From contig NZ_BDCA01000033.1 of assembly GCF_001613265.1 (NCBI RefSeq), forward strand, positions 1 through 64,000: 64,000 bases of DNA, read 5' to 3'. Shown in pieces: positions 26,492 to 32,718 of the stretch. Source of the DNA: Nocardia vermiculata NBRC 100427 (lineage in GTDB: Bacteria > Actinomycetota > Actinomycetes > Mycobacteriales > Mycobacteriaceae). The notes beneath the pieces were generated by a model. That model saw only the letters and a list, made by a program, of their open reading frames with translations. It had not been told where the DNA came from and searched no databases. Every line of letters begins with the position of its first letter. The stretch's first letter is position 1. The position numbers and the translations under genes are program-made.

Positions 26492-26701
26492 AACCGCACC
26501 TTCCTTCCGAGATGAATTGTCCCGAGATGAATTGTGGAGGCCACGTCCCCGGCGAAGCTTATGCTCGGGCGCGGTACGCGCGGACCGAACCGGGAGCACG
26601 AACCAGGTTCTTCGCCGAAACGAGATCTCACGTCCGGACGGCGTCGGCCGATCGGGCCGGGATACTCGACACCAGCCAGTCGATCGACGAGGAGGATGTT
26701 C

Positions 26702-27706
26702 GTGTCCGCACTGTTCTTACTCGAAGCGGGTCAGGAACCGGCAGTGTCACTGCGGGGTTTCGTGCGCCGGCACCCGTGGATCCGGCTCAGTACGGATCCG
26801 CTGTTCCTGCAGCACGATCGCGGCGCCGCGGCGCGGCGGGTCGCCCTCGTCTCCGGTGGCGGATCCGGTCACGAACCGATGCATGCCGGATTCGTCGGTC
26901 CGGGGATGCTGGATGCCGCCGTGCCGGGGAAGATCTTCGCTTCGCCGCACAATCGACAGGTCTACGAGGCGAGTAAGGCCGTCGCTCGCGACGGCGGGGT
27001 ACTGCACATCGTGAAGAACTACACCGGAGACAAGATCAACTTCGGCATCGCGGCCGAACGGCTCGCCGCCGACGGGATCGAGGTCGCCCGGGTGCTCGTC
27101 GACGACGATGTCGCCACCGAATCCGACGCGACCGCGACCGGCCGGCGTGGCACGGCCGCAACCATCGTCGTGGAGAAGCTTCTCGGCGCTGCCGCCGACC
27201 GCGGTGACGACCTGAACTCACTCACCGCGCTGGGCCGCGACGTGGCCGCGCGCAGCCGCAGCATCGCGGTGGCCTCCGCGGCGCTGACCTCACCGCACAC
27301 CGGGACGCGAACCTTCGAACTCGAACCCGGTCAGCTCGAATACGGGGTGGGTATCCACGGTGAACGCGCCGCCGCATCGATCGCGCGGCCGCCGCTCACC
27401 GAACTCGTCGAGCGCATGGTCACCGATATCCTCGGCTCGCTCCCCGCCGGCAACCGAGACCCGTTGTTACTGTTGGTCAACGGGCTCGGTGCGACCACCG
27501 ATCTCGAGCTCTGCACGGTGCTCGAACTCGCCGCGCGCCGGCTCACCGACCTGGGTCACGAGATCGCGGCGGTGGAGTTCGGCACGTTCGTCGCGGCACT
27601 GGACATGAGCGGTTTCTCGATCACCCTGACCCGCCTCACCGACGGCCTGCTCGAGCTCTGGCAGGCCCCGACCGGCGCACCCGCATGGAAGGACCAGCGA
27701 CGATGA
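26702..27706 (+). CDS. dhaK: dihydroxyacetone kinase subunit DhaK
   Basis: 334 residues. SGGGSGHEPMHAGFVGPGM is the family hallmark, and the histidine that binds dihydroxyacetone as a hemiaminal is about residue 219 in GVGIHGE. It pairs with DhaL to phosphorylate dihydroxyacetone in glycerol metabolism. GTG at 26702 lies 6 bases after GGAGG, whereas the in-frame ATG at 26696 touches the Shine-Dalgarno and is unlikely. The N-terminal 20 residues (ALFLLEAGQEPAVSL) differ from the usual KKLINDP start. Confidence 0.93.
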   Translation: MSALFLLEAGQEPAVSLRGFVRRHPWIRLSTDPLFLQHDRGAAARRVALVSGGGSGHEPMHAGFVGPGMLDAAVPGKIFASPHNRQVYEASKAVARDGGVLHIVKNYTGDKINFGIAAERLAADGIEVARVLVDDDVATESDATATGRRGTAATIVVEKLLGAAADRGDDLNSLTALGRDVAARSRSIAVASAALTSPHTGTRTFELEPGQLEYGVGIHGERAAASIARPPLTELVERMVTDILGSLPAGNRDPLLLLVNGLGATTDLELCTVLELAARRLTDLGHEIAAVEFGTFVAALDMSGFSITLTRLTDGLLELWQAPTGAPAWKDQRR

Positions 27707-28380
27707 CCAGCGCGGCAACGACAACTCTCGACGCCACCGTCCCTCGGCTGCACGAGGCGTTCGTGTCGGCGGAGCCGGTGTTGACCGCACTGGACGAGAT
27801 CGCCGGTGACGGGGACTTCGGGGTCAACCTCCGGGACGGCTTCACCGAGGTCACCCAGCGGCTGTCCGGGCCGGACTCCCCGTCCCCGTGGGACGCGGTG
27901 CGCGCGGTGTTCCTCGACGAGGTCGGCGGGACGAGTGGCCCTCTGTTCGGATTGCTGTTCCAGGCACTCGGTGTCCGAGCGGCACAGTCGGATACCTATG
28001 CCGACGCACTACGGCTCGGCCTCGCCGACGGACTCGCCGCCATCGAGCGCGTCGGTGAGGCGCAGGTCGGTGACCGGACCATGGTCGATGCGCTGGCACC
28101 CGCCGTCGAGACGGCCGCCACGGACCGCGACGATCATGCCGCGCTGGTGAACTCCGCAGTGGAGGGGGCGTTGTCCACGTCCTCCCTGCGGGCACGCCGC
28201 GGCCGCGCCAGCTACCTCGCCGAGCGTGCAGTCGGGCACCCCGACCCGGGCGCGATCGGTATGGCGCTGCTGTTGTGTGTCCTGGCGGAGCCGATCACCG
28301 CACCGGAGACGACCGCACGGGAACGTACCCGCCTGCTCGAGGCGGCAGCTCGTGCGGCACCGGCCCGCGACGACACGTGA
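27703..28380 (+). CDS. dhaL: dihydroxyacetone kinase subunit DhaL
   Basis: 225 residues. GDGDFGVNLRDG carries the Mg-nucleotide-binding aspartates, and GGTSGPLFGLLFQAL and GRASYLAERAVGHPDPGA are typical DhaL motifs. The ATG overlaps the dhaK stop (ATGA), so the two subunits are made together. No DhaM or PTS component is nearby. The phosphate donor, ATP or a distant PTS, therefore remains open. Confidence 0.93.
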   Translation: MTSAATTTLDATVPRLHEAFVSAEPVLTALDEIAGDGDFGVNLRDGFTEVTQRLSGPDSPSPWDAVRAVFLDEVGGTSGPLFGLLFQALGVRAAQSDTYADALRLGLADGLAAIERVGEAQVGDRTMVDALAPAVETAATDRDDHAALVNSAVEGALSTSSLRARRGRASYLAERAVGHPDPGAIGMALLLCVLAEPITAPETTARERTRLLEAAARAAPARDDT

Positions 28381-28422: not shown

Positions 28423-30429
28423 GTGACGATCACCGAGTTACCCTTCGGGTCCTGGCCGACTTCCACCACGTCCGCACATGTCGTCAGCGCCGCGGTGCGT
28501 CTCGGTGAGGTGCGGGTGGACGGGGTCGACGTGTACTGGTCGGAAGGCCGTCCGGCCGAAGGAGGCCGGACCCAGATCGTGCGCCGCACTCCCGACGGAA
28601 CCCGTACCGACCTGTTGCCGGAGGGGATGAACGCGCGTACTGCGGTGCACGAATACGGTGGCGCCGCATGGTGGGTGCGCGACGGGGTGCTGTATTTCGT
28701 CGACTGGGCCGATCAGCGGCTGTACCGGATCGAGCCCGGGGGTGCACCGGTCGCGCTCACCGGCGCACCCGCCGTGGCGCGCGGGGATCGTTACGCCGAC
28801 GGCGCATTCGGTCCGGACGGCACCCTCGTGGCGATCCGGGAGCGCCATCCGGCCGGCGGACGGGGTGCGATCGATGTGCGCAACGAGATCGTGCGCTTGT
28901 CCGCCGACCGGCAGTCGGAACCCGAAGTTCTCGTCGACAGCTCGGATTTCGCGGTCGCACCGCGCCCGAGTCCGGACGGCGCCCGGCTGGCCGTGATCAC
29001 GTGGGACCATCCGTCGATGCCGTGGGACGACACGGTGCTGCGGGTTCGTGATCTCGCCGACGGCACGGAGACCGTCGTCGCGGGCGGGCCGGGCGAATCG
29101 GTGCAGGAACCGCGCTGGTGCGACGACGGCTCCCTGTTGTTCCTGTCCGACCGCAACGGCTGGTGGAACCTCTATCGCTGGACACCGGGCGGCGACATCG
29201 AGACCGTCATCGAGGTGGATGCCGAAATCGGTGTTCCCGCCTGGCAGCTGGGCTCCGCGCGCTATGCCGTACTCGGCGATCGGGGCATCGTGTTCGCGCG
29301 GTGGCGTGATGGTTACGACGGACTGGCCCTGCGCCTGCCGGACGGATCGGTCCGTGATCTGGACGTCCCGTTCTCGGCGATCGCCGCGGTCGAGCGTGCC
29401 GACGAGAACTCGGTGGTCGTGGTAGCGGGCACGCCCACCACCGAATTCGGTGTCTATCGCCTCGGATTCGGCAACGGTCCCGGCATCGACATCGACATCG
29501 ACACCCTGCGCGCGGCACGCGATTCGGAGATCGACGAGGCCGACATCTCGGTGCCCGAGCCGATCTCGTTCCCGTCGACCGACGACACCGGAGCAACGCG
29601 CACCGCGCATGCGCTGTTCTATCCACCCGCGAACTCCCGATACCGCGCTCCCGACGGGGAACTACCACCACTGCTGGTCGTGATCCACGGTGGTCCCACC
29701 TCACAGGCGATCCCAGTACTCGCCTCGAGCACTCAGTACTGGACCAGCCGCGGAATCGCGGTCGTGGACGTAAATTACGGCGGTTCCACCGGCTACGGCC
29801 GCAGCTACCGGACGTTGCTGCGTGGATCCTGGGGCGTGGTGGACGTGGCCGACTGTATCGCCGCGGCGCGGTGGCTCGCGGACACCGGCCGGGTCGACCC
29901 GCAGCGGCTCGCCATCCGCGGCGGTTCGGCCGGCGGCTACACCACACTCACCGCGCTGACCCGAACGGACACCCCGTTCGCGGCGGGCGCCGATCATTTC
30001 GGCGTCGCCGACCTCGAGGCGCTCGCCGCCGAGACGCACAAATTCGAGAGCCGGTATCTGGACGGCCTGGTCGGGGAATATCCGGCCGAACGGGAGCGCT
30101 ACCGCGAACGGTCGCCGATCCACCACGTCGACCGATTCCGCAGCCCACTGATCGTGCTGCAGGGCAGCGAGGACGCGGTGGTACCACCCAACCAGTCCCA
30201 GATGATCGTCGACGCACTGCGTGAGCGCCGGATCCCGGTCGCGTATCTCCTCTTCGAGGGGGAACAGCACGGCTTCCGACGTTCGGAGAACATTCGGAAG
30301 GCTCTGGATTCCGAATTGAGTTTCTACGGGCAGGTATTCGGATTCGAACTACCCGCCCGCGAAGGAATCGAACCGGTGGCGGTCGAGAACCTCGACACCG
30401 CCTCCATCGGTGCGGCACTGGGAGGGTGA
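28423..30429 (+). CDS. S9 family peptidase (acylaminoacyl-peptidase/prolyl-oligopeptidase-like)
   Basis: 668 residues: a seven-bladed beta-propeller domain (about 1-390) and a C-terminal alpha/beta-hydrolase domain. Catalytic triad by motif: Ser502 in RGGSAGGY, Asp584 in GSEDAVVPP, His616 in GEQHGFR. Cleaves short peptides or acyl-amino acids in the cytoplasm; no signal peptide. GTG at 28423. The following hydrolase gene begins 2 bp after its stop. Confidence 0.93.
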   Translation: MTITELPFGSWPTSTTSAHVVSAAVRLGEVRVDGVDVYWSEGRPAEGGRTQIVRRTPDGTRTDLLPEGMNARTAVHEYGGAAWWVRDGVLYFVDWADQRLYRIEPGGAPVALTGAPAVARGDRYADGAFGPDGTLVAIRERHPAGGRGAIDVRNEIVRLSADRQSEPEVLVDSSDFAVAPRPSPDGARLAVITWDHPSMPWDDTVLRVRDLADGTETVVAGGPGESVQEPRWCDDGSLLFLSDRNGWWNLYRWTPGGDIETVIEVDAEIGVPAWQLGSARYAVLGDRGIVFARWRDGYDGLALRLPDGSVRDLDVPFSAIAAVERADENSVVVVAGTPTTEFGVYRLGFGNGPGIDIDIDTLRAARDSEIDEADISVPEPISFPSTDDTGATRTAHALFYPPANSRYRAPDGELPPLLVVIHGGPTSQAIPVLASSTQYWTSRGIAVVDVNYGGSTGYGRSYRTLLRGSWGVVDVADCIAAARWLADTGRVDPQRLAIRGGSAGGYTTLTALTRTDTPFAAGADHFGVADLEALAAETHKFESRYLDGLVGEYPAERERYRERSPIHHVDRFRSPLIVLQGSEDAVVPPNQSQMIVDALRERRIPVAYLLFEGEQHGFRRSENIRKALDSELSFYGQVFGFELPAREGIEPVAVENLDTASIGAALGG

Positions 30430-30431
30430 TC

Positions 30432-31388
30432 ATGGCAACGGAACGAATGGTCGAGACCAACGGTGTGTCGCTGCGGGTCACCGAAGCCGGCGACGCGAAC
30501 GCGCCGGTAGTCGTAGCGGCCCACGGCTTTCCGGAACTGGCCTACTCGTGGCGGCATCAGATCCCGGCCCTGGCTGCCGCGGGCTATCACGTCCTGGCCC
30601 CCGACCAGCGCGGGTACGGCGGGTCGTCGCGGCCCGAGGCCGTCGAGGACTACAACATCGTGGAACTGACCGGCGATATCGCCGGCCTGCTCGACGCGGT
30701 CGGCGCCGAGCGGGCCGTGCTCGTCGGGCACGATTGGGGCTCCCCCGTCGTCACGAACTTCGCGCTGCTGCACCCGCACCGCGTCGCCGGGGTGGTCACG
30801 CTGAGCGTGCGGCCCGTGCCGCGCCCGCAGGCTCCCCCCACTCGCATCTGGCGCAAGAAATTCGGGGACAACTTCTTCTACATTCTCTACTTCCAGGAAC
30901 CCGGCCTCGCCGATGCGGAATTGAACGGCGACCCGGCCCGCACCATGCGCAGGATGATCGGCGGTCTCGGCGGTGGTGCCTTCGCGGCGCCGCAGATGGG
31001 TGCCCCCGGGTCTGCCGGCTTCATCGATCGGTTGCCCGAACCCGAGGCGCTGCCGGGCTGGATCACCCGGTCCGAACTCGACCATTACATCGACGAGTTC
31101 TCGCGCACCGGCTTCACCGGCGGGCTCAACTGGTACCGGAACTTCGATCGCAACTGGGAACTCACCGAACAGACTCCGGCCGCAACCATTGCGGTGCCGA
31201 CGCTGTTCCTCGGCGGCAGCGACGACCCGGTTCTCGCGACCAGCTCACCCGAGCGGATCCCCGAGGTGGTGTCGGGCGCCTACCGCGAAGTGGTGATCGA
31301 CGGCGCCGGTCACTGGCTGCAACAGGAAAAACCCGACGAGGTGAACCGGGAGCTGCTCGGCTTCCTGGACGGACTGCCTCCGTGGTGA
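30432..31388 (+). CDS. alpha/beta hydrolase, epoxide hydrolase-like
   Basis: 318 residues. HGFPE (oxyanion side) and the nucleophile Asp101 in VGHDWGS mark the epoxide hydrolase/haloalkane dehalogenase branch; GAGHWLQQEKP holds the catalytic His. ATG at 30432 follows GGAGG by 6 bases; GTG at 30426 overlapping the peptidase stop is less likely. Tightly coupled to the S9 peptidase gene. An aspartate nucleophile argues for an epoxide or C-halogen substrate rather than an ester. Confidence 0.92.
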   Translation: MATERMVETNGVSLRVTEAGDANAPVVVAAHGFPELAYSWRHQIPALAAAGYHVLAPDQRGYGGSSRPEAVEDYNIVELTGDIAGLLDAVGAERAVLVGHDWGSPVVTNFALLHPHRVAGVVTLSVRPVPRPQAPPTRIWRKKFGDNFFYILYFQEPGLADAELNGDPARTMRRMIGGLGGGAFAAPQMGAPGSAGFIDRLPEPEALPGWITRSELDHYIDEFSRTGFTGGLNWYRNFDRNWELTEQTPAATIAVPTLFLGGSDDPVLATSSPERIPEVVSGAYREVVIDGAGHWLQQEKPDEVNRELLGFLDGLPPW

Positions 31389-31440: not shown

Positions 31441-32718
31441 ATGTCCGCGGCGGGCCGCCGCCGCGACCTCGTGATCCGGCCCCCGTCGGCAGCGGAGCCG
31501 GTGTCGTTCCTGCGGACATCGTGGTCGACCGATCCGTTCGCGTTGTGTTCCTACTCGTTCCAGGCGCCGAGTCGGCTGGGTGTGGATATGCGCACGATGC
31601 TGGCCGAACCGGTGGACGGACGAGTGTTCTTCGCCGGCGAAGCGACGTCGGTGGATGCGCCGGCCACCACACGTGGGGCGCTGGAATCCGGGCGGCGCGC
31701 GGCGCGCGAGATCCACCGCACCGCCCGGCCGGGCGCCCGGGTCGTGGTGGTGGGCGCCGGTTTCGCGGGTCTGGGCTGTGCACACGCCCTGGAGCGGTTC
31801 GGGTTCGACGTGCAGGTGGTCGAGGCGCGCAGCCGCGTCGGCGGACGGGTCTGGACGCGTCGAATCGCCGGAGTGCCGGTTGAATTGGGCGCCTCGTGGA
31901 TTCACGGTGCCGAACGTAATCCGATGGCGGCACTGTTGCGACGCAGCGGTGGGCGGGGATACGAGGTCGACTACGACAACATCGTCGGAGGAGACGAGGC
32001 CGCGATGGCCGAACTCGACGAGTATCTCGAGGCCCTCGACGACGTCGAGGACCCGGATGTCACGGCCGTGTCGGCCCTGCTTCCCGACCCGATGCCGGCC
32101 GCCGTGCAGTACGCCACGAACCTCGCCTATGCGCAGGAATACGGCTGCGAGCCCGCCGAACTCGCGGTCGCGGCCGATCAGGGCTGGTTCGGCGGCGGGG
32201 CCGGGGCGGATCTGTTGCTGCTCGACGGATACGACCGCTTGATCGCGCACCTGCAGGGCCGGCGGGCAGTACAGGCCAACACCGTCGTCGCCACGGTCTC
32301 GCACACCGCCACCGGCGTGCGTCTCGGAACGGCGGACGGCGGGCACCTCGACGCCGACGCGGTGGTACTCACGGTGCCGATCGGCGTGCTCAAAGCGTCG
32401 GCGATCGAGTTCTCCCCGCCGCTGCCCGACGGCAAACAGGAAGCGATCGCCGCACTCGGCGCCGGGCTGCTGGACAAGCTGTGGCTGGAGTTCGATTCCG
32501 TGTTCTGGGATCCCGAGCCCGAATTCATCGAGTGGCGCGACCCGGATGCACCGGGCCTGTGGTCGCTGTGGCTCAACGGATATGCCGTCTTCGGGCACCC
32601 CCTGCTGCTGGGTTTCAACGGTGGAGCTCAGGCGCGGGCGCTGGCCGGGGCCACCGATCGCGAGGTCGTGGCCGGCGCTCTGCACGCCCTCGGCCACCCC
32701 GATTTCCCCCTCCGCTAG
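31441..32718 (+). CDS. flavin amine oxidase with circularly permuted domain order
   Basis: 425 residues. Residues about 20-98 are what normally ends a polyamine/monoamine oxidase: FLRTSWSTDPFALCSYSF, then the FAD-pyrophosphate motif FFAGEATS (64-70) and ATTRGALESGRRAA. Only then does the usual N-terminus begin: VVVVGAGFAG (101-110), GGRVW (134-138), GASWIHG (150-156), and the flavin-side lysine LLDKLWLEF (Lys346). The frame stops at HPDFPLR, just where the DPFALCSYSF block should follow. All core parts are present but in rotated order. The start is uncertain; GTG at 31501 is an alternative and no strong ribosome site precedes ATG 31441. A decayed tandem duplicate or an assembly error must be excluded. 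Confidence 0.8.
   Translation: MSAAGRRRDLVIRPPSAAEPVSFLRTSWSTDPFALCSYSFQAPSRLGVDMRTMLAEPVDGRVFFAGEATSVDAPATTRGALESGRRAAREIHRTARPGARVVVVGAGFAGLGCAHALERFGFDVQVVEARSRVGGRVWTRRIAGVPVELGASWIHGAERNPMAALLRRSGGRGYEVDYDNIVGGDEAAMAELDEYLEALDDVEDPDVTAVSALLPDPMPAAVQYATNLAYAQEYGCEPAELAVAADQGWFGGGAGADLLLLDGYDRLIAHLQGRRAVQANTVVATVSHTATGVRLGTADGGHLDADAVVLTVPIGVLKASAIEFSPPLPDGKQEAIAALGAGLLDKLWLEFDSVFWDPEPEFIEWRDPDAPGLWSLWLNGYAVFGHPLLLGFNGGAQARALAGATDREVVAGALHALGHPDFPLR

Follow-up and report, generated by a model that had tools for sequence, protein, structure and literature searches.

A probable natural circular permutant among the flavin amine oxidases of Nocardia vermiculata and its relatives in Actinomycetota

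The stretch of DNA analysed here, 64,000 nucleotides of contig NZ_BDCA01000033.1 of Nocardia vermiculata NBRC 100427 (the window), carries an intact flavin amine oxidase gene in which the block that canonically comes last leads the protein. We consider, with a probability of about 0.87, that this gene encodes a PAO/LSD-type FAD amine oxidase that has undergone natural circular permutation, within a family that extends across Actinomycetota. It is one member of a whole permuted family and not a single case. The rotated order is conserved and the genes that carry it are under purifying selection in several lineages, in agreement with the initial annotation of this DNA, which had proposed a natural circular permutant from the letters of the one gene.

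Results and discussion

Block order of the window gene

The features of the gene on which the analysis is based are as follows, with coordinates given in the window.

31441..32718, + strand: permuted flavin amine oxidase coding sequence, 425 aa, intact frame with a PF01593 match
31504..31722, + strand: residues 22-94, the moved segment, which is C-terminal in canonical proteins and contains WSTDPF, CSYSF, FFAGEATS and the GALESGRRAA helix
31723..31737, + strand: joint between the old C-terminus and the old N-terminus, residues 95-99, between a modelled helix (77-94) and strand (100-104)
31732..31950, + strand: canonical N-terminal segment, residues 98-170, with the FAD Rossmann motif GAGFAG, EARSRVGGRVW and GASWIHG
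32293..32691, + strand: canonical middle segment, residues 285-417, ending 8 residues short of the stop
32476..32478, + strand: Lys346 in GLLDKLWL, aligned with a lysine of LSD2

The earliest candidate start of the frame is the ATG at 31441, and the GTG at 31471 is likewise possible. The protein matches the Pfam family PF01593 (Amino_oxidase) in three stretches with an E-value of 3.9e-68 and a score of 231 bits, the cut-off being 19.8, and none of the best 25 of 42 NCBIfam matches lay above its family cut-off. With phmmer, residues 14-91, 100-170 and 246-409 aligned to residues 697-773, 338-409 and 515-683 of LSD2, each significantly, LSD2 being the best relative among solved structures. The block order is C-N-M (C-terminal, N-terminal, middle) and not the colinear N-M-C. 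When the junction alone served as query, its match was split in two, with the halves exchanged, in both alignments shown, those to spermine oxidase and to LSD2, and for the PDB entries 5ttj, 7khn and 7kho the matched stretch spans the joint (query residues 42-146), which we take for a chance extension. The limits of the moved segment come from the alignment to LSD2 697-773, a segment HMM and the alignment to canonical C-terminal fragments.

The Rossmann motif GxGxxG (101-110), EARxRxGGR (128-138) and the GEAT motif (63-70) are all present. As had been noticed initially, the C-terminal motifs (WSTDPF at 28-33, CSYSF at 36-40, FFAGEATS at 63-70 and GALESGRRAA at 79-88) lie ahead of the Rossmann start, VVVVGAGFAG at 101-110, and the frame ends in HPDFPLR (residues 419-425). 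The limits first given for the C-terminal block, 26-87, place it correctly but differ by one or two residues from those found here. Neither a stop nor a frameshift, which had been raised as a concern, interrupts the reading frame at the C-N junction, and the impression that nothing essential is missing holds, with the C, N and M segments each present once, their order rotated and the old termini joined.

The PF01593 flavin amine oxidases such as maize polyamine oxidase (1b37), spermine oxidase (7oxl) and LSD2 (4gu0) have the blocks, the FAD motifs and the lysine in common with the window protein but run N-M-C. Canonical-order Tat-type FAD oxidoreductases of Actinomycetota (for example L014-L016, L029 and L036; L and G numbers are our handles for loci and genomes) are likewise homologous over all three segments but unpermuted. 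Since family-level annotation hides block order, permuted genes are easily overlooked.

A permuted family in Actinomycetota

ORFs of fetched loci were typed using segment HMMs corresponding to residues 22-94 (C), 98-170 (N) and 285-417 (M) of the window protein. ORFs with all three segments fall into two clean classes, C-N-M and N-M-C, and in no ORF of the typed set does a segment occur twice. We found 32 intact C-N-M genes in 32 Actinomycetota genomes, the window included, plus one damaged copy; 30 distinct intact permuted genes went into the tree set together with 32 canonical-order genes, and L117 and L118 bring the permuted total from 30 to 32. The joint between the segment matches is 1-3 residues long in 30 of 30 permuted proteins. 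With 31 further intact genes in C-N-M order, that order in the window is beyond chance.

The permuted order recurs in related genomes, a check that the initial annotation had proposed. Within the genus, 12 of 150 genomes gave a match at E <= 1e-30 and two of these, the window's own and G110, hold the permuted form, while in the other 10 genomes the match starts no earlier than residue 87 and all 11 loci have the canonical order. When genome contigs were searched with the protein, one relative was found, L011 from a Nocardia metagenome bin, which likewise has the permuted order and shares 80% identity across residues 13-417; its sequence is identical to that of L012 from G110. Across 301 genomes of the family the junction search found the window's own genome as the sole full match without a stop; phylum-wide, full matches were obtained in 11 of 396 genomes, the own genome and one damaged copy included. 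The class-wide search at E <= 1e-70 located the permuted form in at least 26 of 394 genomes, again with the own genome, and its genome counts are lower bounds owing to the strict E-value. Six of the 24 permuted genomes typed in that search have a second match in the same assembly that starts at query position 105 or later, which we read, from the match start alone, as probable canonical-order paralogues.

The genome searches covered Actinomycetota, and beyond the phylum we searched plasmid, phage and viral collections. Among the matches listed for the plasmids (20 of 89 records, from 72,556 searched) 80% of the junction query was nowhere covered, and all matches other than H5 reach one half of the query only. 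H5, on a Skermanella plasmid, was rejected as a broken gene with an N-terminal fragment followed by a C-terminal block in different frames, that is, in canonical order. L049 5959-6565 on a Skermanella rosea plasmid is a broken canonical amine oxidase whose annotation, a 264-base gene for an FAD-dependent oxidoreductase, covers its end only. The phages (50,697 records) gave no junction match. The viral contigs L080-L087 proved canonical (the C block of L085 being partial), L088 and L096 have the N segment only, and a further query of the viral contigs found no permuted gene. Within Actinomycetota, G176 and G235, from the family search, were set aside because their near-full junction match has a stop inside: it runs from the end of one canonical gene over a TGA into the beginning of another. 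The genes of G369 (L121) are canonical, and for L122 and L123 the segment typing is incomplete.

Assembly and selection

A rotated order could arise on paper, if the assembly had put together, the wrong way round, two halves taken from different or duplicated oxidase genes, and the window assembly does consist of 80 contigs while the closest relative, L011, comes from a low-coverage metagenome bin. The same order and the same joint are however found in the 31 further intact genes of other assemblies, some of which comprise only 1-4 contigs (G641, G672, G683, G948, G977 and G1113). In addition the remaining 12 matches in the window's own genome are confined to the Rossmann region, so that no second close oxidase gene is at hand for a chimera. 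An assembly error is refuted for the family as a whole and we find it scarcely credible as an explanation of the window gene.

It is also highly improbable that the gene is a non-functional remnant, the decaying end of one gene fused to a truncated second copy. One family member is indeed damaged: in L039 (1267-2412) the C and N segments are followed by a stop and, still in frame, by part of M, while the stretch ahead of M and about 50 positions of M itself are missing. This copy is a gene that has recently decayed or else the product of faulty assembly. Against a remnant stand the other 32 frames, open across all three segments with 420-817 codons from stop to stop, and the Rossmann glycines, the GGR motif and the GE of the C-terminal motif, which are invariant in 30 of 30 proteins. 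Substitution patterns point the same way, with dN/dS at 0.10-0.19 in three close pairs, moved segment included. For the window and L011 we obtained a dN of 0.129 and a dS of 0.751 (NG86; ratio 0.17), with 58, 41 and 162 differences at the three codon positions over 405 codons, and for the moved segment of this pair a ratio of 0.11 over the first 84 codons and 0.08 over 72. The other two close pairs gave 0.10 (L055/L056) and 0.19 (L067/L068); in three more distant pairs, where dS is less reliable, the ratio was 0.40-0.54. The frame decay that the initial annotation had reckoned with is not seen, purifying selection extending to the moved segment, and this selection together with the independent assemblies speaks against mis-assembly or decay.

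Predicted structure

An AlphaFold2 model built with 17 alignment rows, in which canonical relatives were entered as unchanged fragments, had a pLDDT of 73.1 and a pTM of 0.75; the unpermuted fragments of these relatives align to both halves of the window protein. A prediction from two sequences only was poor (pLDDT 44). Around the joint the 17-row model consists of a helix (77-94), a short loop and a strand (100-104), with block-mean pLDDT of 87-94 over residues 81-130, and its weak places amount to 58 residues with pLDDT below 50. Foldseek ranked LSD2, maize polyamine oxidase and LSD1 at the top, and VIA-align superposed model residues 99-425 on 1b37_A 5-379 with a Z of 21.4 and an rmsd of 2.9 over 322 aligned residues; both programs keep chain order, and the superposition covers residues from about 92 on and not the moved segment 22-94. 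The structure prediction recommended at the outset has yielded a model in which the predicted fold of residues 99-425 is PAO-like.

In a circular permutant of this kind the new termini would fall in a loop, the one that leads from the final helix of the middle segment to the strand of the C-terminal segment, and the old termini would be linked by a loop of a few residues running from the C-terminal helix to Rossmann strand 1. The permuted protein would most likely fold into an ordinary two-domain oxidase, bind FAD and oxidise an amine with O2 or another acceptor. For the window protein we infer FAD binding, activity, chemistry, substrate and location from its sequence.

Catalytic lysine and export signals

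The alignment position of Lys346 is presumably that of the catalytic, flavin-near lysine of the family, a role which Lys346 itself would then have in the window protein. Of the permuted rows 18 of 30 have this lysine, and of the canonical rows 30 of 32. In the permuted proteins that lack it (L044, L046-L048, L057, L058, L060, L061, L063-L065 and L069) it is replaced by T, V, L, A or R, and 11 of these 12 constitute, with no other member, a single branch in the tree (support 95), L069 being the twelfth. With the lysine absent from 12 of 30 members the family need not share one chemistry.

A Tat-like N-terminus is present in 27 of the 30 permuted proteins checked. Using a simple pattern and not a trained predictor, we found an RR motif followed by a lipobox in 20 of 30, and by eye an RR-hydrophobic start without a lipobox in L066, L067, L068, L070, L071, L072 and L076; neither RR motif nor lipobox was found in the window protein, L011 or L062. 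The same pattern, which misses some variants, detected RR and lipobox in 16 of 32 canonical rows. On these counts export is probably ancestral in the permuted family and its signal was probably lost in the window branch, and the Nocardia pair (window and L011) is probably cytoplasmic. The family is spread over Actinomycetota, with most checked members Tat-like, many of these with a lipobox, and the Nocardia pair without a signal.

The absent export signal in the window protein, L011 and L062 would also suit a protein that has lost oxidase activity and taken on another FAD-binding or regulatory role, as would the lack of a shared operon evident by eye in the neighbourhoods listed. We hold such a loss to be distinctly unlikely, given the strong purifying selection and the retention of Lys346, the Rossmann motifs and the C-terminal GEAT motif.

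Origin of the permutation

We infer a single origin for the permuted family, which the trees neither reject nor demonstrate. The first tree held 62 rows and the test tree 59, the long-branched canonical sequences L081, L085 and L087 having been dropped; the damaged L039 as well as L117 and L118 are left out of the tree. In the unconstrained maximum-likelihood trees the permuted proteins are not all grouped. Twenty of them, the window protein included, form one group with a support of 100, which fits one origin or several, and the window protein, L011, L059 and L062 form one clade, also at 100. L066-L072/L076 and L042/L043 sit among canonical rows with weak deep support (values of 16, 23 and 59 in the 59-row tree and of 42-67 in the 62-row tree). 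This placement, and the canonical L085 with its very long branch, which joins L066-L072/L076 at a support of 90 in the 62-row tree, would be expected if permutation had occurred more than once, with the main group, L066-L072 plus L076, and L042/L043 as separate permutants at the same loop. We regard this as rather unlikely, for the data do not reject one clade of all permuted proteins (dlogL 1.45, AU p 0.43 with 59 rows and 5000 resamplings, too few according to the program's warning), and both cut point and joint length agree across the family.

The initial annotation had attributed the order to tandem duplication followed by loss of the outer halves, a route that is plausible but not proven. 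Permutation by duplication predicts fused duplicates (PMC3320104), and among the ORFs scanned no fused duplicate oxidase, nor any protein with a duplicated segment, was seen. However, G176 and G235, genomes from other genera of the same bacterial family, each contain a head-to-tail pair of canonical oxidase genes that share a reading frame and are separated by one TGA.

L119 956-2626 and 2630-3967, + strand: tandem canonical pair of G176
L120 4236-2797 and 2793-1486, - strand: tandem canonical pair of G235

Readthrough or loss of the TGA would be enough to turn such a pair into a fused double oxidase. Their genes are 32-33% identical to each other and distant from the permuted family (C-segment 25-29 bits); the pairs show that the needed geometry exists, not that this route was taken. 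In a further set of loci (L028, L029 and L032-L036) a canonical oxidase gene has, about 1 kb upstream and on the same strand, an ORF with a weak C-segment match, an arrangement that suggests tandem oxidase arrays.

A fuller history, on which we would put even odds, is that an exported FAD amine oxidase was permuted once, in ancient times and perhaps through in-frame tandem pairs like those still present in relatives, and founded a separate Actinomycetota family that later diversified, the Nocardia branch returning to the cytoplasm and the 11-member branch losing the lysine and perhaps turning to other chemistry.

Comparison with known permutants

The flavoenzyme fold that is cut here also underlies the drug targets MAO and LSD1 and, to our knowledge, few natural circular permutants have been described among large two-domain enzymes with a cofactor. 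We take the fold of the FAD-binding fluorescent protein LucY to differ from that of the flavin amine oxidases. LucY tolerates permutation, but in its description (PMC4408115) the permutations are engineered, whereas those of the window family are natural. The saposin/swaposin and transhydrogenase cases (PMC3320104) concern the same kind of event, with old termini fused and new termini elsewhere, in other proteins. The word "oxidase" is absent from the main text of that circular-permutation review, and no description of a permuted flavin amine oxidase was found in the open-access literature, judged by title and start of abstract, among the matches listed. Nature has retained a cut through this flavoenzyme fold in many lineages, and the family offers a ready set with which to ask where the fold can accept its termini, how FAD is loaded onto a protein with an internal Rossmann start and whether export or activity changes on permutation.

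Genomic neighbourhood

Directly upstream of the permuted gene and on the same strand lies a hydrolase gene.

30426..31388, + strand: alpha/beta hydrolase gene

In L011 too an alpha/beta hydrolase gene, similar as judged by eye, adjoins the permuted gene, but in the opposite orientation (155-1135, - strand), and the difference in orientation between the window and L011 suggests a local inversion. No shared gene cluster was evident by eye in the ORF lists of L112-L115. Elsewhere in the window an ORF at 26534-28380 overlaps a DAK2-domain gene by 22 bases, and the two together look like a two-subunit dihydroxyacetone kinase.
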